From a virus, in the IMG/VR virus record IMGVR_UViG_3300031885_000004, positions 17,510-81,509 of that record: a stretch of 64,000 nucleotides of DNA; one strand, given 5' to 3'. The notes under the pieces were generated by a model, which searched no databases, was not told the DNA's origin, and saw only the letters and a list, made by a program, of their open reading frames with translations. Numbering within the stretch: position 1 is the first letter of the stretch; the number at the start of each line of letters is the position of its first letter. The translations under genes were made by a program, and so were the position numbers. This document shows, piece by piece, positions 25,214 to 63,271 of the stretch.

Positions 25214-26626
25214 ATGGAAGATGTCAGAACACCAGACGCAATAGATGATATAGAGATTAAATATCCAGGACCAAAAGATTTGGTGCATCTGCACTCACAT
25301 ACTATATTTTCAGCTCTTGATGGTATTGCATCACCAGAAGATTATATGAAAAGGTGCGGAGAACTTGGTATGTCAGCTATTGCCATAACCGATCATGGGT
25401 GTCTTGCATCTTTCCCAGACGCTTATTTTGCGGCCAAAACATATAAGATAAAATTCATACCAGGATGTGAGATATATTATAATGATCACCACAATGAACT
25501 ACAGGAATTCCAAAAAAGTGGTAATAAATGGTCATCTTTGAAATTGTTGGACCTAGAAAAATATGAATTATTACGCAGGCATAGACACGTAACTGTTTTG
25601 TCTAAAAACCAAGTTGGGTATAAAAATTTAATCCATATGACTACCAATGCATGGGAAATTGGCCATTATTATAAACCAAGAATCTGGATGGATATACTTG
25701 ATAGCCATAAAGACGGGCTAATTATTCTTAGTGGGTGTATGAATGGTCCGGTATGTCACGAGATAAGGGCAGCACACGAATTAACCATTAAAGGCCAAAA
25801 TTCGGAAGCAAGTAGGCATTTAGAGATGGCCAGACAGTGGTTAAATGATATGCGCGAAATATTTGGGAAGGACCTATATATTGAAATGCAAATGCCGGGT
25901 AAAGACCTTGACGGGTCAATCCAAGCTTTCGCGACATGCGCGAGATGGTCTGATGAATTTGGCATAAAAGCCGTCATAACTAATGATTGCCATTATATTC
26001 ACAGACAAGACTTTGATGTTCAAAAATGCATGATGGCGGTTGACCAAAAAAAGACATTAGATGATCCTGAGCTATTCACCACCAATTCAAGCGAGCAATA
26101 TTTTAAGAGCAGATCGCATCTTAGGGCTATATTCCACGAGCATGGCTATAATGCAGATGTTAGTCAGGCTAAATTTGAAGAAATTTGCGATAACACTGTT
26201 GAAGCTGCAGAAAAATGCGATGGGTTTAAACCAGACCTATCACCAAAATTACCAGCCATTAAAAACGCTAGTGATAAACTAACAGTTTTAGTATTAAATG
26301 CTCTCAAGGATAAGGAGTTATATAATAGCCAGAAGAAATATGAAGTTGATGGAAAGATGGTCACCCATAAAGAGCAAGCCCTGATAGAATTAAGTCGGAT
26401 CATCTCGAAAGGCTTCGCGCCATACTTTTTAGTGATTCGAGATTTAATACAATATTCTATTAATAGTGGATGGGATGTTGGTCCTGCCAGAGGTAGCGCT
26501 GGCGGATCATTGGTTTGTTTTCTAATCGGGATCCACGAGCTTGATCCATTAAAGTGGCACCTATCATTTAATAGGTTCATGTCGCCGTCTCGAGGCGGCA
26601 ACATGCTGAAAGTATCAATGGAATAA
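25214..26626 (+). CDS. Family C DNA polymerase (PolIII alpha), N-terminal fragment with PHP domain
   Basis: 470 residues. The PHP domain opens with LVHLHSHT (H25, H27, H29) and continues with ITDHG (59-62) and a late NDCHYIH motif, so several metal ligands of an active PHP exonuclease are present. The C-terminal part has the polymerase palm segment GPARGSAGGSLVCF and NRFMSPSRGG. There it stops, just before the catalytic Asp-x-Asp motif, which is found 1.4 kb downstream in another gene. So the replicase alpha subunit is encoded in two pieces that must assemble. The last codon overlaps the next gene's ATG. Confidence 0.9.
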   Translation: MEDVRTPDAIDDIEIKYPGPKDLVHLHSHTIFSALDGIASPEDYMKRCGELGMSAIAITDHGCLASFPDAYFAAKTYKIKFIPGCEIYYNDHHNELQEFQKSGNKWSSLKLLDLEKYELLRRHRHVTVLSKNQVGYKNLIHMTTNAWEIGHYYKPRIWMDILDSHKDGLIILSGCMNGPVCHEIRAAHELTIKGQNSEASRHLEMARQWLNDMREIFGKDLYIEMQMPGKDLDGSIQAFATCARWSDEFGIKAVITNDCHYIHRQDFDVQKCMMAVDQKKTLDDPELFTTNSSEQYFKSRSHLRAIFHEHGYNADVSQAKFEEICDNTVEAAEKCDGFKPDLSPKLPAIKNASDKLTVLVLNALKDKELYNSQKKYEVDGKMVTHKEQALIELSRIISKGFAPYFLVIRDLIQYSINSGWDVGPARGSAGGSLVCFLIGIHELDPLKWHLSFNRFMSPSRGGNMLKVSME

Positions 26627-27398: not shown

Positions 27399-27758
27399 AT
27401 GAAAATTGAGACTGGTGGGATAGTCAGTAAAAAGACTGGGTCGAAGTTCGCTGTTATAATTAAGATAGGTAGTGAAATTAGATCGTATGTGCATGAAGTC
27501 AAATCAGATTCGACACTTAATTATGTTGAATTATTGGCGGTTAAATTTGCTTTACTTGGTTCGAATGTTACACCAATAATAATTTCAACACCAAACGTCT
27601 ATGTATGTGATATCTTAAGGCATGAGGGCGATAATTGGCTAAAACTGCCAAAATCAAATAAAGAACTAGTAGATGAAATCAGAAAGCTTATAATAGAAAA
27701 GAATGCATCAATAACGTTCGAAAGAAACGAAGAAATTAGGAAACTGTGTAGCTCATGA
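27399..27758 (+). CDS. Degenerate RNase H-fold protein
   Basis: 119 residues. The order is two strands, then TLNYVELLAVKFALLGSN, then IIISTPNVYVCDIL, which copies the RNase HI layout (N-x-x-x-E-L-x-A helix, then a strand followed by D-S-x-Y-V). The Glu is kept but the first-strand Asp and the DS Asp are not evident, so nuclease activity is doubtful. It may be a structural piece or primer-handling relic. It overlaps the polymerase C-terminal fragment by 4 bases (ATGA). Confidence 0.4.
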   Translation: MKIETGGIVSKKTGSKFAVIIKIGSEIRSYVHEVKSDSTLNYVELLAVKFALLGSNVTPIIISTPNVYVCDILRHEGDNWLKLPKSNKELVDEIRKLIIEKNASITFERNEEIRKLCSS

Positions 27759-30700
27759 CGTGGAAGGAACTGAAAAGATTGGCGGCCAACACCCTCGCCA
27801 CGAGGTTTAAGGGTAGAACTACAGAATATACCGGAAGGTTAAGATATGAATTAGACCAAATAGAGTTACAGGGTGCTGAGGATTATTGGATTGACCTATA
27901 TGATAGTAAAAGAACGTTCGACACCAACCATAATGGGTTGGTATTTCCACTGCTTCTTGGGATAACCAGCATCAACCCAATAGAACGCAGCATACCACAT
28001 AATATTGTATATCAACCAGATTATCCAGACATTGATACTGACTTCCTACCGATAGCACGCGATCATATTAAAAAATATGCATCAAAACAATATGGTGAGG
28101 ATCGCGTATGTAGTGTTGGGTTGTGGCAGACATATAAACCAAAGTTGGCGATAACAGACGTGTGTAGGGTAATGAAGATTGACCCAACAGAAGCGCAGAG
28201 GCTTACTAAAGAACTACCAGATGAATTCGACGATATGGATTTTGAAGCGGCATGTAATGCCTACCCGAATTTTAAGACATTTGCGGACAATAACGACAGC
28301 GTAATCAAAATGTCGTATAGGCTAGTGAAATTAATTAGGTCCCAAGGAAGACATGCAGGTGGGTTAATAATATCAAGCGTACCAGTACGTGATTATATTC
28401 CTCTTACTAAAAGCCCATCTGGACCAAAAGGGCAATGGACATCGGCGTGGACGGAAGGCAAAAGCACTCAACTGTCAAAATTTGGATTTATAAAATTTGA
28501 CATACTTGGCTTAACCAACCTTTTGCATATATGGATATGCAAACAGTTTATAAAGAAAAATCGCGGAGTTATAATCGATTGGGGCGATATGGACCCCGAG
28601 GTTGATAGGGCCGGGTGGGAAATATTGCCGGATGGCACCAAGAGCGCCATAAGTTTTAAGGACGACCTAGCGTTAGATATGGCCGATAAGAGAAGAGTAG
28701 AGACCATATTCCAATTTGAAACAGATCTCGCTAAAAGCATAATCCAAAAGGGGCATGGTGTAAAAAGTTTCTATGACATGGTTATTTATACGTCTCTTGG
28801 TAGACCAGGACCTTTACCGCTGGTCAACGATTATGTTGCAAGAAGAGACGCCAAAAATGATGATTGGAAAACCAAAGAGGACCCTAAAATAGTAGAAATT
28901 TTATCAGACACTTACGGGATTATAGTTTTTCAGGAGCAACTAAGCAAGTTCTTCATCAAAATATGTGGATTCACAGTACCAGAAGCCGAAGCCGCGAGAA
29001 AGGCTGTAGCTAAGAAGTGGGCCGATCAACTAAAAAAGATCAAAGACAAGATGATTGCTGGGGCTACCAAAACAATCGGGCACGATAAGGCGGTTGAGTG
29101 GTGGGGTAAAATAGAGTCATTTGCTAGATATTGCTTCAATGCCTGCCTAGACGGCGACACGACCATTGTCAATCCAATAACATTAGAAAGGACGACGATA
29201 GAACAATTATATCTAAATCCAAAGCCGTTCAAGCTGTTGTCATTTAATAATGGTGAACTAGTAGCCGACGATGTGGTCAATATACACTACAATGGCATGC
29301 TGCCAATATATCAAGTTATGTTTAGTAATGGGCTTACGCAGAACGTGACTATTGGCCATAAATTTATGAATGTTTATGGCAACATGGAAACTGTTAAGTC
29401 TCTCTTGAAGACCGGTCATGCAATCAAATATATAAGTGATAGCATGACTGGAGGAGAATATGTTTCACAAGCTAAATCTGCAAATAGAGAAAGAAGTGGT
29501 AAGGATGTACCAGGAGGGTGCATCATACAAAGAAATAAAAAACGACATAAGAGCATTTTCATCGGACGGAACGATAAGGAGAATAATAAAAAAGCATGGC
29601 GTACAGAGATCATTTATAACTCAAGCATCCAACAGTGTGAACCATTATTACTTTTCGAAGATAGATTCGCCAGAAAAGGCATATTGGATCGGGATGTTGA
29701 TAGCAGATGGGTACGTTCACAACGGGAGGGGATATGTAAGTTTGCAGCTCAATTCGAAAGATCAATTGCTGGTGGAGCAATTTGGCCAAGATATAAAAAC
29801 ACCAAGGAAGATGGTAATCTGCAAGAAACAGCGTGCTGGTCCGCAATCGAGGATATCAGCCAGCAGCAGGATGTTATTAGCGGACCTAAGCAAATATGGT
29901 GTGATTCAGGGAAAAGAAGGACGGGAGATAATGCCACGCATGCGGTTTATTTCCCATCTTCTGAGAGGGCTTATGGATGGAGACGGAACGATTATCGTAA
30001 ATGGCAAGGGATATCCTATGGTAAAATTTTGCGGATCTCCGAAAGTAGTAAAAGGATTCAGGGACGCGATAATCAAGCACTGCAGGGTAAGAGTGAGCAA
30101 GATAACAGAATATTCAGAGAGGATGAACGCTGTGGCGTGGTCTGGCCTAAAACAGTGCAAACCGATCCTGAGATATCTCTACAGGGGGGCAACGAGATTC
30201 TTGGTAAGGAAGCAAATCGTAGCGGATGCTATATTAAGAGCATCAGATATATCGGAGTTAAGAGGACATATTCGCCAGAGATGAGATCTATTCAGCACAA
30301 TTACATAACCTCACCACAGGATGGTCAACCAATACAAGCAAATTCACATGCAATGGCTTATATAGTTATTACATTTAGGTGTTTGTGGTTGAAAGCCCAC
30401 TATCCAACAGAATGGTGGGCATCGGTCATGACGAATTGCAAACGCGAAAAGTTGGTTAAGTATATGGGAATCGCTAGATCTGAGGGAGTGAAATTCGGCT
30501 CCCTTGACTACAACCAGCTTAGCCAGACTTTCTCGGTCAGCGGGGATACAATTACTTTGGGGTTAGAAAGCATTAAAGGCATTGGCGATAAAGCTGCATT
30601 AAAAGCGCAAGGCGACCGCGATTGCACCAGTTTTGATGAATTTGTGTCACAAGCATCGAAGAACAAAATAATATTTGAGCGGTTAATTAAACTCGGCGCA

Positions 30701-31342
30701 TTTGATAAATTACACCCAAATAGGAAAGCATTATGGAACTGGTATCTTTATAAATATGGATCTGGGAATGACACCAAGATCGTTAAAGAAGAAGTGGCGG
30801 CCAAATTAGCGTGGAGCGATGAGAATATTGCTAAAGAGAGGCTGAGACAGACTAAAGAATTTCTAGCCAATTATCCTAGGAAAAAGAAGATACCAGCTCA
30901 TATAGAAAAATGGAAACCGAAAAACAATCCGACAATCCAACAATTCGAAGAAATGTTCGGAGATTTTTCATATGAGGAAAGGCTAAAATTTGAAAAGGAA
31001 TATCTTGGATATTATTGGAGCTCGCCTCTTGGTATATATAATTGCGCCAACCAAACTATAGATGATGCTAGATCTACTGGGATTCTTGAGGCGGTGATTG
31101 ATAGCATTGATACTAGGAGAGGCAAAAACGGAGCATTTAAACAATTAAATGTCACAGATGGTATTGAAATTGCCAAAGTAATGGTGTGGCCCGATGAACT
31201 TGCTATCAATGACGAGAATATATTCAAGGAAGGCATGGGAGTTAGAATGAGAGTATCTTGGAAAGAAGAATATTTGAGCTTTAACGTTAGATCAGGCTCA
31301 ATTGTATTGCCACTGGAGAAGAAGAATGCTGCTCCAATCTAA
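27755..31342 (+). CDS. Family C DNA polymerase (PolIII alpha), catalytic C-terminal fragment containing an intein
   Basis: 1195 residues. Residues 25-50 repeat the pre-palm module (TGRLRYELDQIELQG). Residues 91-97 are PDIDTDF, the catalytic Asp-x-Asp motif. FARYCFNA at 456-463 is interrupted by an intein (464-863), after which SHAMAYI and LWLKAHYPTEWW continue the FNKSHSAAY block of PolIII. Further on are the HhH motif ESIKGIGDKAA and a C-terminal OB-like region. Mature extein is about 795 residues. It works with the PHP-bearing fragment at 25214-26626. Splicing must succeed for activity. Confidence 0.9.
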   Translation: MTWKELKRLAANTLATRFKGRTTEYTGRLRYELDQIELQGAEDYWIDLYDSKRTFDTNHNGLVFPLLLGITSINPIERSIPHNIVYQPDYPDIDTDFLPIARDHIKKYASKQYGEDRVCSVGLWQTYKPKLAITDVCRVMKIDPTEAQRLTKELPDEFDDMDFEAACNAYPNFKTFADNNDSVIKMSYRLVKLIRSQGRHAGGLIISSVPVRDYIPLTKSPSGPKGQWTSAWTEGKSTQLSKFGFIKFDILGLTNLLHIWICKQFIKKNRGVIIDWGDMDPEVDRAGWEILPDGTKSAISFKDDLALDMADKRRVETIFQFETDLAKSIIQKGHGVKSFYDMVIYTSLGRPGPLPLVNDYVARRDAKNDDWKTKEDPKIVEILSDTYGIIVFQEQLSKFFIKICGFTVPEAEAARKAVAKKWADQLKKIKDKMIAGATKTIGHDKAVEWWGKIESFARYCFNACLDGDTTIVNPITLERTTIEQLYLNPKPFKLLSFNNGELVADDVVNIHYNGMLPIYQVMFSNGLTQNVTIGHKFMNVYGNMETVKSLLKTGHAIKYISDSMTGGEYVSQAKSANRERSGKDVPGGCIIQRNKKRHKSIFIGRNDKENNKKAWRTEIIYNSSIQQCEPLLLFEDRFARKGILDRDVDSRWVRSQREGICKFAAQFERSIAGGAIWPRYKNTKEDGNLQETACWSAIEDISQQQDVISGPKQIWCDSGKRRTGDNATHAVYFPSSERAYGWRRNDYRKWQGISYGKILRISESSKRIQGRDNQALQGKSEQDNRIFREDERCGVVWPKTVQTDPEISLQGGNEILGKEANRSGCYIKSIRYIGVKRTYSPEMRSIQHNYITSPQDGQPIQANSHAMAYIVITFRCLWLKAHYPTEWWASVMTNCKREKLVKYMGIARSEGVKFGSLDYNQLSQTFSVSGDTITLGLESIKGIGDKAALKAQGDRDCTSFDEFVSQASKNKIIFERLIKLGAFDKLHPNRKALWNWYLYKYGSGNDTKIVKEEVAAKLAWSDENIAKERLRQTKEFLANYPRKKKIPAHIEKWKPKNNPTIQQFEEMFGDFSYEERLKFEKEYLGYYWSSPLGIYNCANQTIDDARSTGILEAVIDSIDTRRGKNGAFKQLNVTDGIEIAKVMVWPDELAINDENIFKEGMGVRMRVSWKEEYLSFNVRSGSIVLPLEKKNAAPI
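29144..30343 (+). mobile_element. Intein in PolIII alpha with an out-of-frame endonuclease
   Basis: The intein starts at Cys464 with block A CLDGDTTI, has block B GLTQNVTIGHKFM, block F-like IQHNYITSPQDG and ends QAN before Ser864 (N|S junction), 400 residues. The penultimate His is replaced by Ala. It sits in the highly conserved FN-(K)-SHSAAY loop of family C polymerases. The region between blocks B and F is a meaningless Arg/Lys/Gln-rich translation in the polymerase frame because it encodes an endonuclease in another frame. No stop codons interrupt the polymerase frame. Confidence 0.85.
29460..30284 (+). CDS. LAGLIDADG homing endonuclease nested out of frame in the intein
   Basis: 274 residues from ATG 29460 with GGAGG five bases upstream. 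An N-terminal helix-turn-helix region (QEGASYKEIKNDI...TIRRIIKKHG) is followed by LAGLIDADG motif 1 AYWIGMLIADGYV (about residue 75) and motif 2 LLRGLMDGDGTI (about residue 170). So it is a complete two-motif monomeric endonuclease with its own DNA-binding domain. It lies entirely within the intein but in a different reading frame, and ends just before intein block F. It would cut intein-less polymerase alleles and so spread the element. Confidence 0.85.
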   Translation: MFHKLNLQIEKEVVRMYQEGASYKEIKNDIRAFSSDGTIRRIIKKHGVQRSFITQASNSVNHYYFSKIDSPEKAYWIGMLIADGYVHNGRGYVSLQLNSKDQLLVEQFGQDIKTPRKMVICKKQRAGPQSRISASSRMLLADLSKYGVIQGKEGREIMPRMRFISHLLRGLMDGDGTIIVNGKGYPMVKFCGSPKVVKGFRDAIIKHCRVRVSKITEYSERMNAVAWSGLKQCKPILRYLYRGATRFLVRKQIVADAILRASDISELRGHIRQR

Positions 31343-31754: not shown

Positions 31755-32284
31755 GCGAGAAGAAGAAAGTTAATATGTCTGATAAAACTGTTCTAGCGTA
31801 TAGTTTACGCCACGTATTTGTTAATGGCGCTGAAGTTGAATCTAGACCAGTACAGTGGGATGGGAAAGATTACGATGGCCAAGGACATGACGAGTCAGGT
31901 AGAGGCGTATTGCCAATTGCATATATAACAACATGCCCAGAATGTGGTAATTTGATCCAATTTGGCGCGTCAGACATTGTGATTAAAGATGGTAAAGATA
32001 TAGTAGTATGTCAGCGGTGCCTATCGCCTGGTAATAGTGGCAGACCAAAGCTTGGACCGCCGAATACCAAACTTCAGAATACGATGCCAAAATCGTCTGA
32101 AGCCAAGTCAATTGAAACATCGAAGATCATTGAGGCACCAAAGGCAGTTGAGGCACCAAAGGCAGTTGAGGCGCCAAAGGCAGTTGAGGCACCAAAGGCA
32201 GTTGAGGCACCAAAGGCAGAACCAAAGCCTGACTTATCTGAATTTAGTGACCCGATCAAATCTGGGGCGATGAAACTTGACTGA
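31751..32284 (+). CDS. Zinc-ribbon protein with EAPKAV repeat linker
   Basis: ATG 31751 follows GGAGGAG. CPECGN...CQRC forms a zinc ribbon near residues 62-85. Five EAPKAV-type repeats follow and then an acidic tail PDLSEFSDP. The plan of zinc module, flexible Pro/Ala linker and acidic C-terminal peptide is often used to dock on replication partners such as SSB or clamp. Function inferred only from layout. Confidence 0.65.
   Translation: MSEKKKVNMSDKTVLAYSLRHVFVNGAEVESRPVQWDGKDYDGQGHDESGRGVLPIAYITTCPECGNLIQFGASDIVIKDGKDIVVCQRCLSPGNSGRPKLGPPNTKLQNTMPKSSEAKSIETSKIIEAPKAVEAPKAVEAPKAVEAPKAVEAPKAEPKPDLSEFSDPIKSGAMKLD
32128..32220. repeat. 18-bp tandem repeat encoding EAPKAV
   Basis: About five near-perfect copies of an 18-base unit (gcaccaaaggcagttgag), within the zinc-ribbon gene. 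Expected to vary by slippage. Confidence 0.85.
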
Positions 32285-34246: not shown

Positions 34247-34993
34247 ATGAACCTATTAAATAGATGCGCCATCTGTGATTCGGCAACTAATTTAAATACC
34301 AAGATGACTGTTACCATCGATAGTATTGAATATAATGTAGCAATATGCTCAGACCATGAGGATTCATCTCCCAAGAAAATAAAAGCAGCTATTTCAAAGC
34401 AGATCGATGAGATCAGCAAAGCCAGAGAAGTGGCCCAAAAGTATGGTCTAATACTAATCGAGCCAACCAAAGTAGCCGCAATAACTCCAGCTGCTCCGGC
34501 TCCAGCTGCTCCGGCTCCAGCTGCTCAAATACAACCACATAAATTGCCATCTGGACTTAGAGCTCAAAAAGTGGGTTCTAGAAATCAAATTACCGCAAAA
34601 ACTGCGGTTGCCGAACCAGAGCCAATCATTCTTCCGTCATCTGACGCTCCCAGTGACGCTGAAAAACACGACAATTATAACTTACCAAAAGCCACATTAA
34701 GAGAGACAGTAAAAGACCAACAGAAATTGACTACTCCGTCGCGTGGGTCTATTATCTTACCCAAAAAAATTATAGATAATGAAGGTGGGCAGACAGATAT
34801 CAAGATAGTTAACTCGGGCGGTGATCTTGCACTACAGACAAGGTTTAAACAACTAGCAGAAACTAGCAAAAGCAAACCACCAGACTTAATAAGAGGTGGT
34901 TATCTGGTGCACAATTGTAACTCTTGTGGTGGCACTGGCAAATTAAAGGGCAGTGCGTGTATAGCGTGCGGTGGCGAGGGTATTGTTCCTTAG
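34247..34993 (+). CDS. Multi-zinc protein with DnaJ-like C-terminal knuckles
   Basis: ATG 34247 with GGAG upstream. N-terminal CAIC pair, then a helix and an (APAPAA)n linker encoded by short tandem repeats near 34490-34530. The C-terminus has CNSCGGTGKLKGSACIACGGEG, two CxxCxGxG motifs as in the DnaJ central zinc domain. 248 residues. Perhaps an adaptor or chaperone-like protein; unknown. Confidence 0.7.
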   Translation: MNLLNRCAICDSATNLNTKMTVTIDSIEYNVAICSDHEDSSPKKIKAAISKQIDEISKAREVAQKYGLILIEPTKVAAITPAAPAPAAPAPAAQIQPHKLPSGLRAQKVGSRNQITAKTAVAEPEPIILPSSDAPSDAEKHDNYNLPKATLRETVKDQQKLTTPSRGSIILPKKIIDNEGGQTDIKIVNSGGDLALQTRFKQLAETSKSKPPDLIRGGYLVHNCNSCGGTGKLKGSACIACGGEGIVP

Positions 34994-41324: not shown

Positions 41325-42521
41325 ATGCAAGAGTCTGAAAAGAAGAAAATGCTCGAGAAGATGCGCCAGCGCATGAAGGACGAAAAGGGCAGCTCTAGGG
41401 ACCCAGCGATGTTTAGGGTTCCGAACACTAAACCGAACGAAACATTTAAGTATCGATTTGTAGTGCTTCCCGGTATTGCCAAAGGCCAGAAATGCATCAC
41501 TGGTGAAGCGTCTGCAACTATGGATGAGCGCCAATGGCCCGGTGAAGATGGAACAATTAAGAAGATGCCATGGTTCTGCGTTAGCGGCGGTCTTCACTGG
41601 ATTGATCGCAGGCCATATGGTTGTCCAAGGTTATTCGATAAAGCTAAATGCCCTTGGTGCGAACTCGGATTTGAACTTCGCAGAGAGTGCGATGTTGAAG
41701 ACAAAAAGCGAGCACTCGCCAAGCTATATCTCCCCAGGACAATGTCTGCAGTGAATATTTATTTCCCTCCATCGAACGTCAATCCCGCTGATCTTCATGG
41801 GAAGGTCATGTGGTATCAAATGCCAAAGACCGTTTTCGATAAGATGGAAGAGTGTTGGATGCGTGACGGTCCTGGCGATGATCCAGAAAATGACCCAAAA
41901 CCCTACGGCATGTTCTGGGATCCAGAGGATTGTTTAATATTCCAGGTTGAAGTCACACACAAGAGTGGTTATAACAACTATGAAAGCTCAAAATTCCTGG
42001 TCAAGCGCCACAGGCTTGCCGAAACACCAGAGGAAATTCAGGCAATCCTCGATCAGCGCCACGATATCGTAGCCAAGTTCCCGCCTAGAAATGCCAAGGA
42101 ACTCGCAGACTTACTCGAGAAGGTTGGTCAAGGCGAAATCCCGAAGACTAGTGGCGCTGATGGCGACGAAGACGAAGAACTTCCAGAGCAGAAGAGCGCA
42201 CCAAAGGCAGCACCATCCAAATCTGCTCAGCAGAAAGCGGCCCCTGCTCCTGCGGCACCGGCACCGGCGGCACCAGCACCGGCACCTGCTCCTGCGGCAC
42301 CGGCACCTGCTCCTGCGGCACCGGCACCTGCCCCAGCACCAAAGGCATCAAAGCCAAAACCCACCATCGATGAAGACGATGGTATGCCGTCAAGCAGCAA
42401 AAAGCCTGCTCCTCCGACCACAGCACCGGCAGCCGCTAAGGCTAAGGCCACGAGCTCAGTAGATGAAGTGGATGATCCTGAGCTAAAGAAGCTGCTAAAC
42501 GAGGTCAGGGAAGAGATATAG
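41325..42521 (+). CDS. gp32-like single-stranded DNA-binding protein
   Basis: 398 residues. Basic helical N-terminus (KKKMLEKMRQRMKDEKG) as in the gp32 B-domain. The OB core holds a zinc site HWIDRRPYGCPRLFDKAKC then PWC, with H-x8-C-x8-C-x2-C spacing close to T4 gp32. The C-terminus has a long Pro/Ala linker (about residues 300-345) and an acidic tail (EVDDPELKKLLNEVREEI) that would bind partners. AAGGAG precedes ATG 41325. It coats single-stranded DNA for replication and RecA-driven recombination. Confidence 0.9.
   Translation: MQESEKKKMLEKMRQRMKDEKGSSRDPAMFRVPNTKPNETFKYRFVVLPGIAKGQKCITGEASATMDERQWPGEDGTIKKMPWFCVSGGLHWIDRRPYGCPRLFDKAKCPWCELGFELRRECDVEDKKRALAKLYLPRTMSAVNIYFPPSNVNPADLHGKVMWYQMPKTVFDKMEECWMRDGPGDDPENDPKPYGMFWDPEDCLIFQVEVTHKSGYNNYESSKFLVKRHRLAETPEEIQAILDQRHDIVAKFPPRNAKELADLLEKVGQGEIPKTSGADGDEDEELPEQKSAPKAAPSKSAQQKAAPAPAAPAPAAPAPAPAPAAPAPAPAAPAPAPAPKASKPKPTIDEDDGMPSSSKKPAPPTTAPAAAKAKATSSVDEVDDPELKKLLNEVREEI
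42238..42345. repeat. Pro/Ala linker repeats in SSB gene
   Basis: Degenerate repeats of cctgctcctgcggcaccggcac encode (PAPAA)n between the OB core and the acidic tail. GC-rich compared with the rest of the gene. Confidence 0.8.
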
Positions 42522-46143: not shown

Positions 46144-46574
46144 GAAGGCTATCATCTGCGCAGCGAAGGATTATTTCCGAGCAAGAGACGCTTGGGGTAG
46201 ATAAGTTAAAACCCACAATAAAACCCACAATAAAACCCACAATAAAACCCACACCAAAGCCAGAGCCAGCTGGTGATGAACTTGCAACACTCGAGCTGCC
46301 TGAGCTAACAGAACCACCAGCTGATCAGCCTGAAATTGGTGATGTAGAACTATTACAAAAATGCAGAGAATATTTAGAAGAATCAATCTCCAATCTCAAT
46401 AAAATCGGAATCATACTTGGCGCGAGGTTAAAAGATTTCTCAACAAGAGAAAGTTTACTAGCCGTTAATAGTCAACTAGATAAAGTGATCGACGCAGTAA
46501 ATGAAAGAATTCTTAGGCAGGCTTCTAAAGATGGATATGATGTCAGCGCGATGCTTCCAGGAGAGCAGAAATGA
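46140..46574 (+). CDS. Protein with KPTI repeats and coiled C-terminus
   Basis: 144 residues. Begins RRLSSAQRRIISEQE, which also contains an I-S-E that could be cleaved. Then four KPTI/KPTP tandem repeats (12-bp DNA repeats near 46210-46255), a Pro/Glu-rich linker, and a helical C-terminal domain. ATGA overlap with upstream gene. Unknown. Confidence 0.55.
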   Translation: MRRLSSAQRRIISEQETLGVDKLKPTIKPTIKPTIKPTPKPEPAGDELATLELPELTEPPADQPEIGDVELLQKCREYLEESISNLNKIGIILGARLKDFSTRESLLAVNSQLDKVIDAVNERILRQASKDGYDVSAMLPGEQK

Positions 46575-54225: not shown

Positions 54226-54564
54226 ATGCGTAAATCAGCCATTGCTACCCTCAAGAAGATGCTTGAAGATCAGAAGAAGCGTCTTCTTGAAAATGTTAAT
54301 TCTATGTCTAATTATCAGCAAGATGTTAATCGCGCTGATCGTAGTTCAGACGAAATAGATATGGAATATGCACACGCATTATCGTCTGAAGTGATTGAGC
54401 AGTATAACGCAAAATTGCAAGAAATAGAGTCTGCGCTTAATAAAATAAATCACGGAAAGTTTGGAATATGCAATGAGTGTGGCAAGATCATTGCAGATAA
54501 GCGTCTAAAGGTCATGCCAAGTGCTAGATTATGTTATAAATGCGCATCAGAAGCTGAGAGCTAA
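54226..54564 (+). CDS. DksA/TraR-like zinc-finger protein
   Basis: 112 residues. N-terminal coiled coil (about 1-70), then ALNKINHGKFGICNECGKIIADKRLKVMPSARLCYKCA. This is the DksA/TraR C4 zinc finger with its usual A-L-x-R-I-x-x-G-x-Y/F-G lead-in. Such proteins enter the RNA polymerase secondary channel and alter promoter kinetics, so the phage may use it to bias host transcription. Last gene of the plus-strand run, converging with the tagged gene at 54561. Confidence 0.88.
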   Translation: MRKSAIATLKKMLEDQKKRLLENVNSMSNYQQDVNRADRSSDEIDMEYAHALSSEVIEQYNAKLQEIESALNKINHGKFGICNECGKIIADKRLKVMPSARLCYKCASEAES

Positions 54565-55520
54565 GTTTCCCACGGTATAGTATCAATTGGCGATTTGGCC
54601 GTACCAATAATTGATTCTTTAACATACCCAATGCCATTAGGTCCAACTATCTTACCTAAAATTGATCCTTTTATATCTGCGCTTTCTACCCACTCTTGCT
54701 CTAATTCAAGATCAACAGAATCACCATATAATGATTCGGCCTTAACAATCTTATAAACAACATTCACACATTCCCAGCTACGTCCTCCTAATGAAGATCG
54801 GCTGAATTCAGCCTTCGGGCTTGCAATTTCATCGTCGTAATCGTCTTCATATCGGCGGCGGTTACGTCTTCTTGGCCTACTATAACCAGATGGAGCATCC
54901 CATTTTACTCTAAGTGTCGCCACCAACCTAATTTGATCCCATGGAAAAGAATTAGCTAATTCCTTATCTGTGATGCCGAATTTATGCTGCGCTTGACCCT
55001 CGAATGTTATGCTAGCCGCACCTTGCGGATCAGTCCACTCAAGCTCATCACTACTATATTCCGGGAATTCTTCTGGCCCAGACATGGATGCTGGATAATA
55101 ACTACCAGACCAATGACCTTTAATTATAGCACTACCAGCATCGTCTATATCTGTGGTCGATGCTATGTGCGCTAATAACTGCTTGTTCGAAAGAGCCGCC
55201 AACAATGGTTGTGTTGAGGTGGTGGGTTGGAATGCCGCCGGGTTCTGCAGGAACGTCTGGAATGGCTTCCACCCACCCTTGAATACGTCGTAGTTAATTG
55301 GATAATTTTTTGCGATGATATCTATTGCTTGATCGATATCATGTCGGGACCACATCTGAGCTTTTAGTTTATCCTCTAATTGCTTTCTGGCTGTAGCAAC
55401 ATCCATAGCCGAAAGATTGATTTCGTCAACTATCTTCCTGACGTCAGAGGTGAGATCCTCATTTATGACGTCAGGATCTTCTGTAATCACATTGGCGATA
55501 TATTTAATATCATTTTTCAT
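54561..55520 (-). CDS. Tag A protein, 319 aa
   Basis: Starts MKNDIKYIANVITEDPDV, a diverged tag A with V-I-T-E. The body has helical segments, a middle beta domain, an Arg/Asp low-complexity loop (PRRRNRRRYEDDYDDE) and a C-terminal beta domain. No known motif. This tag copy lies 32 kb away from the main tag A cluster, so the tag is dispersed. Candidate packaged protein. Confidence 0.75.
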   Translation of the reverse strand: MKNDIKYIANVITEDPDVINEDLTSDVRKIVDEINLSAMDVATARKQLEDKLKAQMWSRHDIDQAIDIIAKNYPINYDVFKGGWKPFQTFLQNPAAFQPTTSTQPLLAALSNKQLLAHIASTTDIDDAGSAIIKGHWSGSYYPASMSGPEEFPEYSSDELEWTDPQGAASITFEGQAQHKFGITDKELANSFPWDQIRLVATLRVKWDAPSGYSRPRRRNRRRYEDDYDDEIASPKAEFSRSSLGGRSWECVNVVYKIVKAESLYGDSVDLELEQEWVESADIKGSILGKIVGPNGIGYVKESIIGTAKSPIDTIPWET

Positions 55521-55539: not shown

Positions 55540-55851
55540 TTATATTGTCCGTCTGACCGCCTTTTTGGTGGCTGGTCTTAGTCCGTATTGCCTCGCTTTA
55601 ACAACACGGACTGCACTTGAAGGCTGGATCGTAACTTGTGGTAGCTTATAATCACCGGAATGCTCGTGCGCAGCACCAACCTTATCCATCATATCGCATA
55701 TTTTTTGAATTGTGCATGGTGGCGTTGATGGATCTGTATCTGGGATCTTAGATCCAGACACAGAGTGAATAGACGCTTTGGCCGTTGGCCAAGCTTGCTT
55801 TTCAACTAAGTTCCTTGGCCCGGAGGGCCGTCCACTCCCTTGTCTCCGCAT
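55540..55851 (-). CDS. Small basic unknown protein
   Basis: 103 residues, Pro/Ser/Lys-rich, mostly disordered, with a basic C-terminus. Overlaps the upstream gene by 46 bases; a start further inside is possible. Unknown. Confidence 0.45.
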   Translation of the reverse strand: MRRQGSGRPSGPRNLVEKQAWPTAKASIHSVSGSKIPDTDPSTPPCTIQKICDMMDKVGAAHEHSGDYKLPQVTIQPSSAVRVVKARQYGLRPATKKAVRRTI

Positions 55852-56159
55852 GGGTCTGGCAAAAGCCCCATAAGAATTTTCTGCGGCTTAATCTTCGGAA
55901 AATAATCAAATGGCTTAACTTCTTGCAATATGCTGAATGGAACGACAATCCTAACGATGCCACTTATTGATAGGCTGACACTATCGTCAACAACAAATAT
56001 GGCAACCGTGGGTTTATTTCCAACTTCACTAGAATGAAGACTGAAGTATCCGCCTTTCAATGCTGCCCCATCCATCTTAACCCACACCTTTAAGGTGTCG
56101 TCGGCTGGGTCCCACATCGATTCTACGCGGACATTGTCAGATATGATCCTTGCGAACAT
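55806..56159 (-). CDS. Unknown beta-rich protein with Gly-X-Y end
   Basis: 117 residues, beta-sandwich-like. Ends GDKGVDGPPGQGT, a short collagen-like tail as in the fibre protein at 14.2-16.4 kb, so it may be a truncated or separate virion fibre piece. Overlaps its neighbours on both sides. Confidence 0.55.
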   Translation of the reverse strand: MFARIISDNVRVESMWDPADDTLKVWVKMDGAALKGGYFSLHSSEVGNKPTVAIFVVDDSVSLSISGIVRIVVPFSILQEVKPFDYFPKIKPQKILMGLLPDPCGDKGVDGPPGQGT

Positions 56160-56484
56160 TATTTTTCTCCGGTTTATTCATAGAATTGATGACAACTAGC
56201 GCTCGTAATCTTTCAACCATCTTTGGTAGGAATTCCGGATCAAATAGATCGTAAGTATGCTCGATGTAATTGTAATTTGCAGGATAGATTCCAACCATTG
56301 TGCTAGATCCATCTGGTCTATACATATACTCTATGTATCTCAATTTGTTCTTGGTGACTTTGAAGCTTCCCAAGTTAAAGCCGTTCTTGATAATATGACC
56401 ATTCTTATATTCGAATCCGTTGCATGTTAAATACTTAATTACTAATTCCTCAGCTTCTTGTTCGTGTTCACGCTCGTTGTTCAT
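56137..56484 (-). CDS. Unknown protein, 115 aa
   Basis: Glu-rich helical start and an alpha/beta body ending in a DLFDPEFLPKMVERL segment. The gene at 57376-57705 has a similar segment (DLYDPGSLDKIIDMI), so the two may be paralogues. This one has no tag. ATGA overlap with the upstream gene. Confidence 0.55.
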   Translation of the reverse strand: MNNEREHEQEAEELVIKYLTCNGFEYKNGHIIKNGFNLGSFKVTKNKLRYIEYMYRPDGSSTMVGIYPANYNYIEHTYDLFDPEFLPKMVERLRALVVINSMNKPEKNNVRKDHI

Positions 56485-56839: not shown

Positions 56840-57361
56840 ATGAGGCTTTCTGAGCTAGTTGAAGACGTAAGCGGAATAATTAGCAAACCATACTTATATC
56901 ACGTAACGAGCAAGTCAAACCTTCCAGCGATACTTTCTAACGGCCTGATCCCATGCCGTAAGGGGGTGGTGTTCCTTAGCTACTCAATAGAGGCCGCCAA
57001 GAATTGGGCATCAGCCCTCGAAAGTTCACACCCAGTAATTATCAAGCTCAAGCTACAAGATTGCCTCCCGATCTATATGAGAGACTTCGTCTACACTTCT
57101 CCAGCTAAGATGTGGGGCCGCGATGCTGCAAATCCCGACGACGATAAGCCGCTACTTTATGCTAGATGGAGTAGCAAGCATGGAGGAGCAGGTGACCTAG
57201 TCAAGATAGAATCGATAGAGGAGTTTAAGGACTGGCTTGAAACGATCGAAGCATATAATGTCGACATCCATAGGGAACAAGTTAGCAACTATGATATGTT
57301 AGAGGTGATGGTTGACAGGCCAATACCACCATCGGCGATAACTGGCGTCATATCAGTTTGA
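56840..57361 (+). CDS. Tag B ADP-ribosyltransferase-fold candidate
   Basis: Starts MRLSELVEDVSG, tag B with L-V-E. Then YLYHVTSKSNLPAILSNGLI, VVFLSYSIEAAKNWA and C-terminal MLEVMVDRPIPPSAITGVI. This is the H-Y-E layout of the ART superfamily: YH(V/I)T strand, (F/Y)LS-x-S strand, and an E-V-x-V-x-x-x-I-P-P-x-x-I strand as in KptA-like enzymes. 173 residues. All three motifs are visible, so an active transferase is likely. With tag B it parallels T4 Alt as an injected ART. Confidence 0.7.
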   Translation: MRLSELVEDVSGIISKPYLYHVTSKSNLPAILSNGLIPCRKGVVFLSYSIEAAKNWASALESSHPVIIKLKLQDCLPIYMRDFVYTSPAKMWGRDAANPDDDKPLLYARWSSKHGGAGDLVKIESIEEFKDWLETIEAYNVDIHREQVSNYDMLEVMVDRPIPPSAITGVISV

Positions 57362-57375: not shown

Positions 57376-57705
57376 TCAACCATTTAGTTCGTGGCTCTTG
57401 ATCATATCTATTATTTTGTCAAGTGACCCAGGATCATATAAATCAACCTCACCTATGACATCTGCAGTGCCTGGGGTGAACAGGCTCATGCCATTGTCCG
57501 ATACCCATATCTGAGATGGCTCGCCGCCAACACTGATTGAGAAGCGCCCACCCGTAACGTAACTGGTCCGCGACTGAATTTGAATCTCATCGAACGGCTC
57601 TTTGAATTCGCAATCGATTCCTTTCGACTTCAAGTATTCATATATTAATTCTAACGGCTCAGCATCTGGACTCTTATACTCGGCAAGTAATTCTTTAAGT
57701 TTCAC
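57376..57705 (-). CDS. Tag B protein, 109 aa
   Basis: GTG 57705 gives MKLKELLAEYKSPD, tag B with L-A-E, and is preferred over upstream ATGs because the promoter-like box CCACGCGGAAAATAT (57724-57738) would otherwise be coding. The start context (AAAATATTGC-GTG-AAACTT) resembles that of the tagged protease at 22898. The body is alpha/beta with DLYDPGSLDKIIDMI near the end. Unknown function. Confidence 0.6.
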   Translation of the reverse strand: MKLKELLAEYKSPDAEPLELIYEYLKSKGIDCEFKEPFDEIQIQSRTSYVTGGRFSISVGGEPSQIWVSDNGMSLFTPGTADVIGEVDLYDPGSLDKIIDMIKSHELNG

Positions 57706-57723: not shown

Positions 57724-57738
57724 CCACGCGGAAAATAT
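57724..57738. promoter_or_regulatory. CCACGCGGAAAATAT box, copy 1
   Basis: Exact 15-base match to two other copies at 60281-60295 and 60512-60526. Here it lies between the divergent starts of the tagged gene (57705, minus) and the signal-peptide gene (57819, plus). Promoter element or protein-binding site is likely. Confidence 0.5.
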
Positions 57739-58121: not shown

Positions 58122-58697
58122 TTACGACACCAGTTTGAAATGGATTTCCGTAACCTTAGCTTCGCTTATTAGGTTCTCTGGCTGGTCCATCATAAACGCC
58201 GACCCGGCTTGCACCAATATCTTCCCATCGCCGTCAAATATCACCCAATCCTTCGTAATGTCCCCAAAGTGCACGAACGCCGGGACGTACTCCGGATCGT
58301 AAATGTCCGCCTTCGTGCATGTCTCCCATATCTTATTTCTATTTCTGACCAGCGCAGTCTCCCGCGCCTTAATCTCCGCTATCATCGTTACATTCAGGAT
58401 GATATATTCGACCGCCTTCATAGGCTTTACTAATATCTGAGCGCTTATATAATTGTCGTTGCACTGTCCTACATTTACCCTGAACTGCATCTCTGGTATA
58501 CCAATGCCATCTATCGTCTCCTTTATCGTGTTTCTTAGCCCCATTCCGTCCGAGAATATTGTATCTCTCAGCGTCTTAGAGATTTCACTCTTCACCTTTT
58601 CTATAGTCGCCCAGTGCCTTAGGGAAATCAACCCAGACACCTGTTCCTTCTTTTTTGACGTTAACTCGTGCTCTGAGATTAGTCCTATTGATTTCAT
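58122..58697 (-). CDS. Tag B-like protein, 191 aa
   Basis: Starts MKSIGLISEHELTSKK, tag B variant ending I-S-E. The body is beta-rich in the middle with helical flanks and no known motif. Stop abuts the convergent exported gene. Overlaps the NADAR gene by 4 bases upstream, so in one operon with the NADAR and ART-like genes. Confidence 0.65.
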   Translation of the reverse strand: MKSIGLISEHELTSKKKEQVSGLISLRHWATIEKVKSEISKTLRDTIFSDGMGLRNTIKETIDGIGIPEMQFRVNVGQCNDNYISAQILVKPMKAVEYIILNVTMIAEIKARETALVRNRNKIWETCTKADIYDPEYVPAFVHFGDITKDWVIFDGDGKILVQAGSAFMMDQPENLISEAKVTEIHFKLVS

Positions 58698-59113
58698 TGT
58701 TCTTCCCTTATCTTCATCAATATCTTTCCCAGGTTATTGCTTCCCGTTCCCGTCCTTAGGTCAACTCCCCAGAACTTATCTCCCCACCTGTTGCCTTCCT
58801 CTAGTTCCGCATCACCCGTCTCGAGGAGCATCTTCCTTAATCCAGGGTCCTGGAACTTTCGCCTAACCAATTCTTCCATTATTTTGACCTTCACCTGTTC
58901 CCAATCTGGCCTCAGGGTGATCTTCCTACCCCTCTTCTTGGCCACTCCAGGCGTGTCTGAAACCCTTATCCATTCTCTTTCTGCATCGACTGTCGTCTTG
59001 GCAGCCTGGTAGGCGTGCTCTACCGAAGGGTATTGCACTCCCTCCAGCTCGACCTTTGCCTCCCAGAAGTTACTTAAGAATCTATATTCTCCCTGGAATT
59101 CAGCGATCTTCAC
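58694..59113 (-). CDS. NADAR-domain protein (YbiA-like)
   Basis: GTG 59113 follows GGAGG by 5 bases. 139 residues: FQGEYRFLSNFWEAKVELEGVQYPSVEHAYQAAK is the NADAR signature, with WGDKFWGVDLRTGTGSNNLGKILM at the end. NADAR proteins act on N-glycosidic bonds of ADP-ribose-type compounds; some are reported to remove ADP-ribose from guanine in DNA made by DarT1-like toxins. The GTG overlaps the stop of the upstream ART-like gene, so the two are translationally coupled. Confidence 0.9.
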   Translation of the reverse strand: MKIAEFQGEYRFLSNFWEAKVELEGVQYPSVEHAYQAAKTTVDAEREWIRVSDTPGVAKKRGRKITLRPDWEQVKVKIMEELVRRKFQDPGLRKMLLETGDAELEEGNRWGDKFWGVDLRTGTGSNNLGKILMKIREEQ

Positions 59114-59577
59114 GGGTCCCTCCTTCGGGTCCTTTTTGGGTCCTTTATGGAGACGTGCTTCATCGTCAGGTCGCCGAACCCGAAGCACACCGGGCACATA
59201 ATTCCTCTATTGGTCATCGATCCGCAGGGCAGGAGATGCTGCCCGTCATCTGGGTATCCTATTTCTCCACGCCCTTCGCAGTTGGGGCAAGGTCTGTTCA
59301 TATTGCTGATCCGTAGGTATCTGTTTGCTTTAGGATTATAGAGGATATTTTCTAGAGTGATTTTTTGTAAGAACACTATCCTGCCTATGCCTATTGGCTC
59401 GTAGCTCTTCCACTCCCACCCAGATGGCTGCTCCTTGAACAACACCCCGAAGACATAGGGTCCTCCCACGTATATTGCTGCCTCGAAACGACTTGTAAAA
59501 TACATTCCGACACTAAATCCCTCTTTAATAATTATATCGGCTTTCTCCTGTGTCGTTCCGTGATAGGCAATAATCAT
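59110..59577 (-). CDS. ADP-ribosyltransferase-like protein fused to zinc knuckles
   Basis: 155 residues. MIIAYHGTTQEKADIIIKEGF, then GMYFTSRFEAAIYVGG and IVFLQKITLENI follow the H and Y strands of an ART/KptA-like or DUF3990-like fold. The C-terminus carries CPNCEGRGEIG and CPVCFGFGD, DnaJ-type zinc knuckles. The third catalytic motif is not clear. Directly upstream of and coupled to NADAR, forming an ART/NADAR pair. Not tagged. Confidence 0.6.
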   Translation of the reverse strand: MIIAYHGTTQEKADIIIKEGFSVGMYFTSRFEAAIYVGGPYVFGVLFKEQPSGWEWKSYEPIGIGRIVFLQKITLENILYNPKANRYLRISNMNRPCPNCEGRGEIGYPDDGQHLLPCGSMTNRGIMCPVCFGFGDLTMKHVSIKDPKRTRRRDP

Positions 59578-59655
59578 ATCATAATTTTGGGTCGAGGCAT
59601 TGCTGCAGCCATACTTGTTAGATACTTAAGGAGCAAATGTAGTTCGGAGATGAAT

Positions 59656-60267
59656 ATGAAGCTCATAATATTATATGAAGGATGGGAAGAGCTTGGTATC
59701 GAAGACCCATTCATAAATGCGTTCAATGTATCATATACGATATACGATGCTATATTAAATAATCCTATTGGAACGCACCACAAAATTATGAAAGAATACT
59801 CTAATACGTATAAAGCATGGCGTCTGCACGCAGCTAGTTCTGTTGATGATTTTCGTGCCGCAGAAAGAAAGTTAGAAGGTGTTACTCCACCAGATGTATC
59901 ATTTCACAAATCCGGCGATGAGATTACAGTGTTCATACCAATACTAGAAACCTATACTGACATACATCAGCAGTTTGGCAATAGGGCTTATTTAAATCTT
60001 CGTATAAGATGCAATTGTGGTCTAAGATCCGTTAGTTGTCATCTTGAATCTGATTTAATAGCTAACAGCCGAGGAACCAATACAAAATTACATACAGTAA
60101 CAGACGATGCGGTTGGATCAGAAGAGGTAATATATCGCTCAGTGAAGCAGTTTGTTAGTGAAGTCCGGGATACTGCCGCGAGAGTATTGGTTGGCGAAAC
60201 TAAAGGAACACCAGAACATCTAATAGAACCAGGGACTATGATAGAATTTGACCCCGATGTACATTAA
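59656..60267 (+). CDS. Tag B protein, 203 aa
   Basis: ATG 59656 has GGAG six bases upstream and gives MKLIILYEGWEELGIEDPF, tag B with L-Y-E plus the GWEELGIEDP extension shared with the zinc protein at 18068. The body is alpha/beta with CNCG near residue 120 and an acidic end. The last codons fall in the 5' copy of a direct repeat flanking the array at 60309. Function unknown; candidate packaged protein. Confidence 0.7.
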   Translation: MKLIILYEGWEELGIEDPFINAFNVSYTIYDAILNNPIGTHHKIMKEYSNTYKAWRLHAASSVDDFRAAERKLEGVTPPDVSFHKSGDEITVFIPILETYTDIHQQFGNRAYLNLRIRCNCGLRSVSCHLESDLIANSRGTNTKLHTVTDDAVGSEEVIYRSVKQFVSEVRDTAARVLVGETKGTPEHLIEPGTMIEFDPDVH

Positions 60268-60280
60268 TATATATATCTCT

Positions 60281-60295
60281 CCACGCGGAAAATAT
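60281..60295. promoter_or_regulatory. CCACGCGGAAAATAT box, copy 2
   Basis: Within a direct repeat of about 38 bases (TGTACATTA(A/G)TATATAT...CCACGCGGAAAATAT) whose second copy is at 60488-60526. It overlaps the end of the tagged gene at 60267. Confidence 0.5.
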
Positions 60296-60308
60296 CTTTC
60301 GTCTGCCG

Positions 60309-60485
60309 CATCTCAGACCATAATGCATCTCAGACCATAACACATCTCAGACCACGCATCTCAGACCACGCATCTCAGACCATAACGCATCTCAGACCAC
60401 CATCTCAGACCACGCATCTCAACCACGCATCTCAGACCACCATCTCAGACCATAATGCATCTCAGACCATAATGCATCTCAGACC
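60309..60485. repeat. CATCTCAGACC array, 12 units
   Basis: Twelve copies of CATCTCAGACC (one with a deletion) separated by 2-6 bases (ataatg, ataac, acg, ac). The unit is 13-17 bases and irregular, so not a CRISPR. It could be iterons for a replication or partition protein, or simple slippage DNA. Confidence 0.85.
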
Positions 60486-60511
60486 TTTGTACATTAGTAT
60501 ATATGCCGCTT

Positions 60512-60526
60512 CCACGCGGAAAATAT
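60512..60526. promoter_or_regulatory. CCACGCGGAAAATAT box, copy 3
   Basis: Third exact copy, in the right-hand direct repeat after the array. It faces the GC-rich gene block starting at 60884. Confidence 0.5.
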
Positions 60527-60643
60527 CGCTCGCTTGAAAGAAAATAGAGGACCTGGGTGGGGATCCCCCATCCCCCTCCCCATGGTCCCCATCCCCTCCC
60601 CCCCTCTCCGGGAAGTACCAGAATATTCTGTGTGTGGTACTTG

Positions 60644-60830
60644 GCGCGGGGCGGCTCGACCGGCGGCGGGGCGGCGGCGCGGGGGGGCGCGGGCGCGGGG
60701 GCGCGGGGCGGCGCGGGGCGGCGCGGGCGCGGGGCGCGGGGCGGCGCGGGGGCGCGGCCCGGCCCGGCGGCCCGGCGGCCCGGCGCGGCCCGGCCCGGCG
60801 CGGCCCGGCCCGGCCCGAGCCCGGACAACG
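60644..60830. repeat. GC-only low-complexity tract
   Basis: Almost exclusively G and C (gggcggcgcggg-type microsatellite, then ggcccggcgg-type). Both strands give open frames of Gly/Ala/Arg/Pro. Similar shorter tracts lie at 61575-61625, 62493-62560 and 63190-63245, always in the untranslated part before a GC-rich gene. Confidence 0.85.
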
Positions 60831-60883
60831 GGAAACCGACCGCCCCGGCGATTGACCGGGGAGGCGGCAGATAGAGGTGGAGC

Positions 60884-61273
60884 ATGTTCACCATTCCCGA
60901 CGTCCGTCCCGACAGCGCTCAGGTTCAGCACCCGGCGGTCTCGGAGTACACCCTGAAGGTGTACGCCGCCCGCTACCCGGCGATCAAGTTCGTCGGAACC
61001 GACACGTGGACGCTCCCCGAAGAGCACGGGAAGAAGGGAGTCCTCGTCCAGTGCCAGTGCGGGAAGGTGGTCTTCCGCAGGACCTCGGACCTGCACACCT
61101 TCGTCGGGTGCCTGATCTGCAAGCCTGCGATCCGCGCCACCTCCGGTGCGGAGCGCAAGCTCGAGCGGACCCTGGGCATGCTGAAGGCCCTCGAGGAGGC
61201 CAAGGCCATCGAGGCGGCGCGGATCGCCGCCGCCAAGGCCCTCGTCGAGGGGGGCGGCACGACCGCCACCTAG
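60884..61273 (+). CDS. GC-rich small zinc protein, 129 aa
   Basis: ATG 60884 with GGTGGAGC upstream. CQCGK...CLIC supplies four cysteines near residues 58-85; the C-terminus is a long Ala/Glu/Lys helix (residues 92-125). Codon use strongly GC-biased. Followed by an 11-bp terminator, so a self-contained unit. Function unknown; probably highly expressed. Confidence 0.75.
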   Translation: MFTIPDVRPDSAQVQHPAVSEYTLKVYAARYPAIKFVGTDTWTLPEEHGKKGVLVQCQCGKVVFRRTSDLHTFVGCLICKPAIRATSGAERKLERTLGMLKALEEAKAIEAARIAAAKALVEGGGTTAT

Positions 61274-61327: not shown

Positions 61328-61666
61328 GCATGGGCGGCGGACATGTGGGGACACCCTATATAGGGTACCACACACGTCCGCGAGGACAGGCCGACGTGTT
61401 AACTCACAAACATTATATTGGTTAACACACGTCTTGCCCGGCCCGGCCACGGGATTTTTATTGTTAAATTAACACACAAATAATATATTGTTAACACACG
61501 TTATATCCTCTTTGCTTTCACTGCTGACGACCATCTTGAATTGGTTGTGGGACCGCGATGAAAGACCCCTTCTCGGGGGGCGGCGGGGCCGGTGGTCCGG
61601 GGGCGGCGCGGCGGCCCCCGAGAAGGGGCCGCCTGGTGATTTGGGTGAGGCTTCAGAGGGTTCTGC
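61328..61666. promoter_or_regulatory. Intergenic region with GTTAACACACGT repeats and a 14-bp inverted repeat
   Basis: No gene. It holds a CCCTATATAGGG palindrome near 61354. Two direct repeats of the form (T/A)ATATTG(G)TTAACACACGT lie at about 61412-61431 and 61482-61502, the first paired with an inverted ACGTGTTAAC. A perfect 14-bp inverted repeat CCCCTTCTCGGGGG (61566-61579) / CCCCCGAGAAGGGG (61615-61628) encloses a GC tract. The AT-rich TTAAC repeats look like promoter or operator sites for the next gene. Confidence 0.5.
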
Positions 61667-61873: not shown

Positions 61874-62196
61874 AGACCCTCCACTCTATCGAAGCATTCG
61901 AGGCGGGGCTCGGCGCTCCGCCCGAATGCGTAGACTGGCTGCTCTTGGGTAGCCGGTCTACGCATTCGTATTCGTACATCACAGGGCTGATAACATACCA
62001 CGTGGCGGCGCAGGCCGCTCAGTACATCACACCCTCGGTGGGCGGAATCGGCGATCCGCGTTTTAATGACTGCAATTCTTCCCCCTACTTGTATGTGGGG
62101 GAAGCGCGGTCCGACGTTGCGCTCACCTATTTTGTACACCACACCGGTTCCACGTGGAACGCGGTGTTAGGAAGGTTTGTTTGTGGAGGGGTCAAC
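61874..62196. promoter_or_regulatory. Structured leader with two mutually exclusive hairpins
   Basis: No gene. Hairpin 1 pairs GCATTCGAGGCGG (61894-61906) with CCGCCCGAATGC (61918-61929). Hairpin 2 pairs CGAATGCGTAGACTGGCT (61923-61940) with AGCCGGTCTACGCATTCG (61951-61968), 18 bp with one G-U pair. They share CGAATGC (61923-61929), so only one can form. A further TTCCCCC/GGGGGAA hairpin is near 62078-62105. Layout fits an attenuator or riboswitch-like leader for the gene at 62197. Confidence 0.45.
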
Positions 62197-62421: not shown

Positions 62422-62448
62422 GGGGCGGCCATTGGCCGCCCCTTTTTT
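62422..62448 (+). terminator. Rho-independent terminator
   Basis: Perfect GGGGCGGCC / GGCCGCCCC stem with ATT loop and TTTTTT. Textbook terminator. Confidence 0.92.
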
Positions 62449-62498
62449 GTGTATAAGAATCAACGCCCACGAAGAGCCCCTCCTCGCGGCGCGGCGGG
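62443..62498 (+). repeat. 56-bp direct repeat with TATAAGAAT, copy 1
   Basis: Starts with the terminator T-run and continues through (G/T)TATAAGAATCAACGCCC into GC-rich sequence. It is repeated with one mismatch at 63147-63202. Both copies follow a terminator and precede a GC-rich gene. TATAAGAA resembles the T4-type late promoter TATAAATA, so this could be a late promoter plus shared 5' leader. Confidence 0.6.
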
Positions 62499-62596
62499 CG
62501 CGGCGGCGGGGGGGCGGCGGGCCGAGCCGCCCGGCGCGGGGGCGCGGGGCGGGGGTTGCCCTTTGTGTTCGGTGTCGATTTTGCGGAGGGTTACAC

Positions 62597-63152: not shown

Positions 63153-63202
63153 GTTTATAAGAATCAACGCCCACGAAGAGCCCCTCCTCGCGGCGCGGCG
63201 GG
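63147..63202 (+). repeat. 56-bp direct repeat with TATAAGAAT, copy 2
   Basis: Same as 62443-62498 except one base. Followed by a GC tract and the gene at 63272. Confidence 0.6.
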
Positions 63203-63271
63203 GGCGGCGGCGCGGCGGCGGGCGGGGCGCTGTTGCCCGCGCCGGGGGCCAACAGTTTTGCGGAGGGTCAC

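Follow-up and report, generated by a model that had tools for sequence, protein, structure and literature searches.

The DNA analysed here, called the window throughout, is a stretch of 64,000 nucleotides corresponding to positions 17510-81509 of an 81,509-base virus record. Proteins encoded on this contig match a UvsX-like recombinase, a DnaB-like helicase, an SbcC-like nuclease subunit, and a phage single-strand-DNA-binding protein; a DNA polymerase match is spread over two ORFs, and another protein matches the Gp23 major capsid family. The contig carries 26 tRNA genes, 25 before the window and one inside it. We read the source contig, on its sequence, as that of a T4-like phage. The two polymerase ORFs lie at 25214-26626 and 27755-31342; in the second, 1153 residues cover 713 positions of the profile, and the approximately 440 extra amino acids could possibly represent an intein or an inserted endonuclease. 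A NADAR-domain protein (58694-59197) is located near two proteins that resemble ADP-ribosyltransferases by eye (56840-57361 and 59110-59577), and one of 25 proteins in a scanned set matches the KptA/Tpt1 family.

The locus of interest is a non-coding array of an 11-letter word, bracketed by direct repeats and positioned between two plus-strand genes. Its features are the following:

57724-57738, plus strand: third exact copy of the box, between divergent genes and about 2.5 kb from the array
57724-57738, 60281-60295, and 60512-60526, all plus strand: the box, CCACGCGGAAAATAT, which lies in the second half of the repeats
59656-60267, plus strand: upstream gene, 203 aa as called, 39% G+C, with its stop codon (60265-60267) within the left repeat
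60194-60549, plus strand: bubble in which C exceeds G (70-nt windows), rut-like in composition and extending over the array and its two flanking repeats
60258-60296, plus strand: left direct repeat, overlapping the last codons and the stop codon of the upstream gene
60258-60274 and 60488-60504: first half of the repeats, TGTACATTA(A/G)TATATAT
60280-60296 and 60511-60527: second half of the repeats, TCCACGCGGAAAATATC
60309, 60326, 60343, 60357, 60371, 60388, 60401, 60428, 60441, 60458, and 60475, plus strand: starts of the exact copies of CATCTCAGACC
60415, plus strand: the unit with one base missing, CATCTCAACC
60488-60527, plus strand: right direct repeat
60640-60830, no strand assigned: tract of low complexity with strong folding, 183 of its 191 bases being G or C
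60884-61273, plus strand: downstream gene, 129 aa, 68% G+C, which opens a G+C-rich block

The array occupies 60309-60485 of the plus strand and contains 11 exact units together with one copy that lacks a base; the twelve irregular copies described by an earlier, sequence-only reading of this DNA thus resolve into 11 exact ones and the short one at 60415. Start-to-start spacings are, in order, 17, 17, 14, 14, 17, 13, 14, 13, 13, 17, and 17 nt, and the 11 spacers take five forms (ATAATG three times, ATAACA and ATAACG once each, ACG four times, and AC twice). Tandem Repeats Finder scored the array up to 235. The presence of 11 exact 11-mers inside 177 nt is not coincidence, and no exact CATCTCAGACC occurs elsewhere in the 81,509-base record. 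In the array (60309-60485), the unit includes nine bases (TCTCAGACC) with complementarity to E. coli 16S rRNA (at GGTCTGAGA); 1.5% of random 11-mers from the window show the same complementarity, which is possibly coincidental.

The direct repeats, approximately 40 nt long, are composed of TGTACATTA(A/G)TATATAT, six or seven differing bases, and then CCACGCGGAAAATATC. That the array is flanked by repeats sharing a box, as proposed from the letters, was confirmed at 60258-60296 and 60488-60527, and the exact recurrence of the box at 57724 between divergent genes was likewise borne out. Of these genes, the one on the minus strand starts at GTG 57705 (in the open frame, the match to the family profile starts at residue 86), and the one on the plus strand at ATG 57819. 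No further match to the box with at most one mismatch was detected in the 81,509-base record, while shuffles of the window gave a mean of 2.14 matches even with three mismatches allowed; three exact 15-mers within 2.8 kb are not coincidence. Across this record, the search for box and unit that the sequence-only reading had suggested found the box at three sites and the exact unit in the array alone. The box as a coding remnant was considered, as one frame of all three copies reads PRGKY by eye, and dropped because a 1-nt shift separates the two flanking repeats and the box shows no variation.

Around the array, the G+C content of the genes rises from 39% before it to 68% after it. Neither neighbor gave a Pfam or PHROG match, the upstream gene being scanned as 59560-60264 and the downstream gene as 60884-61273. 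G+C-rich islands with small genes also occur near the contig start. At the contig end, G+C-only low-complexity tracts (60643-60824, 61566-61640, 62486-62552, and 63190-63230) separate small G+C-rich genes, and an exact 47-nt sequence at 62452 and 63156 leads into two of them; these tracts could be either real spacers or an assembly artefact. A chimeric contig joined at the G+C jump was considered, and three features of the sequence make it less likely: the third box is exact in the part of lower G+C, tRNA genes are found at both contig ends, and islands of G+C-rich genes lie near the contig start too.

Four related contigs were found through the first polymerase ORF. Two are identical in that ORF and, provided that they are collinear with the window, stop short of its 48-kb position. 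The related record G003 has 67% identity in the ORF and is syntenic with the window up to about 52.1 kb, with one further match at 55543-55887; window proteins past 55887 gave no tblastn match at E<=1e-5 in the first 20 kb of G003. This is the only relative reaching that far, and it has no recognisable match there to the array stretch. The four records contain neither the exact unit nor the box at up to two mismatches, none of them being known to cover the homologous place. Within its first 20 kb, G003 holds a run of small paralogous genes (L054:851-9439) with the pattern MKL..LYE...DPDSF.KI, noted by eye. A profile built from twelve of these paralogues recovered four members in the present contig at E<=0.0011, namely the minus-strand gene starting at 57705, the frame at 56137-56484 on the minus strand, and two frames before the window. 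The comparison with G003 thus places the array in an accessory region that is poorly conserved and shows some remote gene-family kinship. Farther on in G003 (L054:11698-13462), two proteins resemble ParB N-terminal-domain proteins by eye, and no window protein matched that stretch by tblastn.

Protein relatives were found for neither of the genes flanking the array, nor for 54561-55520. Searched by BLAST against 50,697 phage records, 56100-64000 and the polymerase region had no match, and BLAST of 60240-60560 against plasmids and phages returned short weak matches alone (E of 1 to 4). In a species-genome collection of 257 Gb, two exact units within 30 nt of each other were found in 12 stretches; viral contigs gave three stretches with such pairs, and one with the reversed word. 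Background rates for exact 11-mer pairs ranged from 2.3e-4 to 3.0e-3 per position in sets of DNA from loci fetched for other reasons, which are not a random sample, and tens to hundreds of stretches (pooled estimate 127) are expected for one word in 257 Gb. Since 12 were observed, the unit shows no excess elsewhere, and the idea of an element shared with other genomes was rejected as not above the background of tandem repeats. The array itself appeared in no other record in the word-pair scan of the species-genome and viral collections, a scan that possibly excludes the records closest to the window. The 15-mer box occurs in 28 viral stretches; inspected by eye, none of the 28 contexts has the flanks seen here, and the box was rejected as a spread motif. 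Among the papers listed as containing the word, none is by title on phages or bacteria, and the titles and abstract beginnings of the literature matches listed mention neither this array nor rut sites built of repeats in phages.

Considered as RNA, the sense strand of the array contains 68 C and 19 G in 177 nt, and among 162,666 windows of this length on both strands the array alone reaches its value of C minus G; in shorter windows of 78 nt, six places reach its best C-over-G value. The predicted folding energy is -14.2 kcal/mol in the sense and -62.0 kcal/mol in the antisense orientation; no window among 920 of array length folds as weakly as the sense strand, and the 206 of matched G+C average -45.7. 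No structure beyond that of shuffles was detected in plus-strand RNA of 60250-60560, and Rfam at gathering thresholds matched tRNA alone. The array starts 41 nt past the upstream stop codon and is untranslated, the gene call being mechanical. Among 26 gene 3' ends it ranks first in weakness of folding and in the C-minus-G value of the first 100 nt, where the 26 are called genes followed by at least 60 nt of non-coding DNA, many of them in the tRNA region, in which tRNAs fold well. No intrinsic-terminator-like site was predicted on the plus strand of 60268-60884 by a weak scan (10 sites in 8 kb, with 7.0 expected from shuffles).

A passage of PMC9160355 describes rut sites as C-rich, G-poor, and unstructured, and a passage of PMC2988021 as "unstructured, sometimes C-rich". 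The array agrees with such sites in composition, in lack of predicted folding, and in its untranslated position after a coding region. As in rut sites of bacteria and phages, a C-rich, G-poor, and unfolded untranslated RNA lies past the stop codon, here with no predicted intrinsic terminator before the next gene; the difference is that this candidate Rho-binding site is made of 12 copies of a word between direct repeats. If the array is regulatory, the lack of folding and the excess of C over G in this 3' UTR suggest an action in the RNA and not as iterons in the DNA. Among single functions we rate that of a rut-like terminator or insulator highest, tentatively and at less than even confidence. 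Starting from a low prior for such a function, we take the rut-like evidence to count as a factor of roughly 7 to 15.

The model that we favor joins this candidate function to an origin by local duplication and repeat growth. Such an origin is probable given the bracketing direct repeats, the third box, and the lack of a recognisable match of the stretch in G003; the sequence-only reading had offered a duplication-born zone as one option, and this fits the bracketing repeats, the third box 2.5 kb away, and the missing G003 match. Copies of an intergenic segment of about 40 nt would have been duplicated, and slippage or recombination between them would have produced the tandem array. A transcript of the upstream gene would then end in a 177-nt, C-rich, G-poor, nearly unfolded and untranslated 3' tail, followed by the strongly folded tract of very high G+C and by a block of genes that differ in composition. 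Host Rho could load on this tail after the stop codon, and transcription would presumably end ahead of the G+C-rich block, with the tract at 60640-60830 as a possible pause zone.

Several observations weigh against a rut function. Repetition of a word magnifies any bias in its composition: when 1500 random contig words of similar G+C were repeated in the architecture of the array, 15.9% folded as weakly, 9.3% were as rich in C over G, and 103 (6.9%) matched both features. The strand was picked after inspection. By bubble area the array is only 10th of 3036, and it is 2nd of the 1611 bubbles with less than 30% antisense overlap to called genes. In addition, the flanking boxes are left unexplained by a rut function.

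The same control bears on the strongest competitor, in which slippage or recombination between direct repeats in a variable region expanded the array neutrally, and unit and box were duplicated without a selected function. We give this account somewhat less than an even chance, and absence of function is rated slightly above the rut-like reading. It agrees with the equally rut-like character of 6.9% of random repeated words, the lack of a recognisable match in G003, the variable spacer lengths, the unit missing a base, and spacings without phase. The phage also readily forms tandem repeats, as five more arrays (21533-21629, 32130-32219, 34485-34526, 42237-42331, and 46207-46253) score at least 80 outside the G+C-only tracts; unlike the present array, however, these lie inside called ORFs and have main periods that are multiples of 3. 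A weaker two-copy repeat with a period of 25 is present at 38004. Ordinary slippage-grown repeats share with this array near-identical copies, mosaic spacers, and a poorly conserved region, but here the spacer length varies, the word is better kept than the spacers, and longer direct repeats bracket the whole. Eleven of the 12 copies keep the 11-mer exactly, as against five forms among 11 spacers, a contrast seen before the unit was defined, and the box is unchanged at three places; both speak against purely neutral growth.

A third account takes the 11-mer (or the quasi-palindrome GGTCTGAGATG) and the box as sites for a phage or host regulator of the genes at 57705 (minus), 57819 (plus), and 60884 (plus). 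The exact box between divergent genes is consistent with operators, as are the imperfect palindrome TTCCACGCGGAA that forms the core of the box copy at 60510-60521, the perfect palindrome TTCCACGTGGAA at 62148-62159, and the G+C content of the plus-strand genes next downstream of boxes, 57819 (56%) and 60884 (68%). Against them, no sigma-70-like promoter, the single type scanned, was predicted on the plus strand of 60250-60884, the exact unit accompanies no other contig gene, the spacings are out of helical phase, and unit and box are absent from the four related records, none of which is known to cover the place. We regard operators as unlikely. The palindrome extends to a perfect 14 bp, GTTCCACGTGGAAC, at 62147-62160, and its core is one base off the box copy at 60510; the two may possibly constitute a shared operator.

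A related comparison is with PeSLs, which, reportedly after Arbiol et al. 2010, are mobile regulatory cassettes of T4-type phages. The likeness lies in a short repeated intergenic element beside variable-region genes of a T4-like phage; the difference lies in the absence here of a promoter by consensus scan and of folding beyond shuffles, and in just three copies of the box. The consensus scan found no match to a PeSL-type early promoter, and by eye TTGACC-16 nt-TATATA is visible at the left copy only. A PeSL-type stem-loop was not detected in 60250-60560, which folds less well than its shuffles: 90 of 100 shuffles equalled or exceeded it in stability (z +1.26).

The sequence-only reading had suggested iterons serving replication or partition. 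A role of the array as a replication origin or as a centromere-like site is the weakest explanation, and we assign it a very small chance. Plasmid iteron origins and short-repeat centromeres are likewise clusters of short direct repeats in non-coding DNA, and twelve direct 11-bp repeats in a non-coding stretch with short AT-rich runs in its flanks would suit such a role; here, in contrast, the phase is irregular, no initiator or partition gene was found, and the phage has T4-type replication genes. No Rep, ParA, ParB, ParM, ParR, TubZ, or TubR family was detected among 105 proteins of the incomplete contig (Pfam, E<=0.001), among the ten nearest, or in PHROG scans, with 12 larger proteins scanned against PHROG only and short or doubtful ORFs left out of the family scans. 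The DnaA box TTATNCACA occurs at chance frequency in the window (3 versus 3.37 expected), with none near the array (nearest at 62448). The units have no common helical phase, as the mean vector is 0.07-0.09 at 10.4-10.6 bp, a value reached by random spacings in 81-88% of trials. A GC-skew check, also proposed from the letters, gave no extreme of cumulative skew at the array; its maximum in the window falls near 54 kb, away from the array at 60.3 kb. Iteron origins are not known to accompany T4-type replication genes. An iteron or centromere function is unlikely.

Returning to the duplication-born array with a candidate Rho-loading function, a more specific possibility is that the phage itself amplified a short word, rich in C and not prone to folding, and so built a site for Rho loading at the border between its native genes and the G+C-rich ones. 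Such a site could act as an evolvable, length-tunable terminator or as a decoy for host Rho; judged from the sequence, we consider this doubtful. Should the array be neutral, it would add one more case of repeat growth in a variable phage region. Should a repeat-built Rho-loading site prove true, phages could quickly create and tune terminators at the joins of gene blocks of unlike composition.
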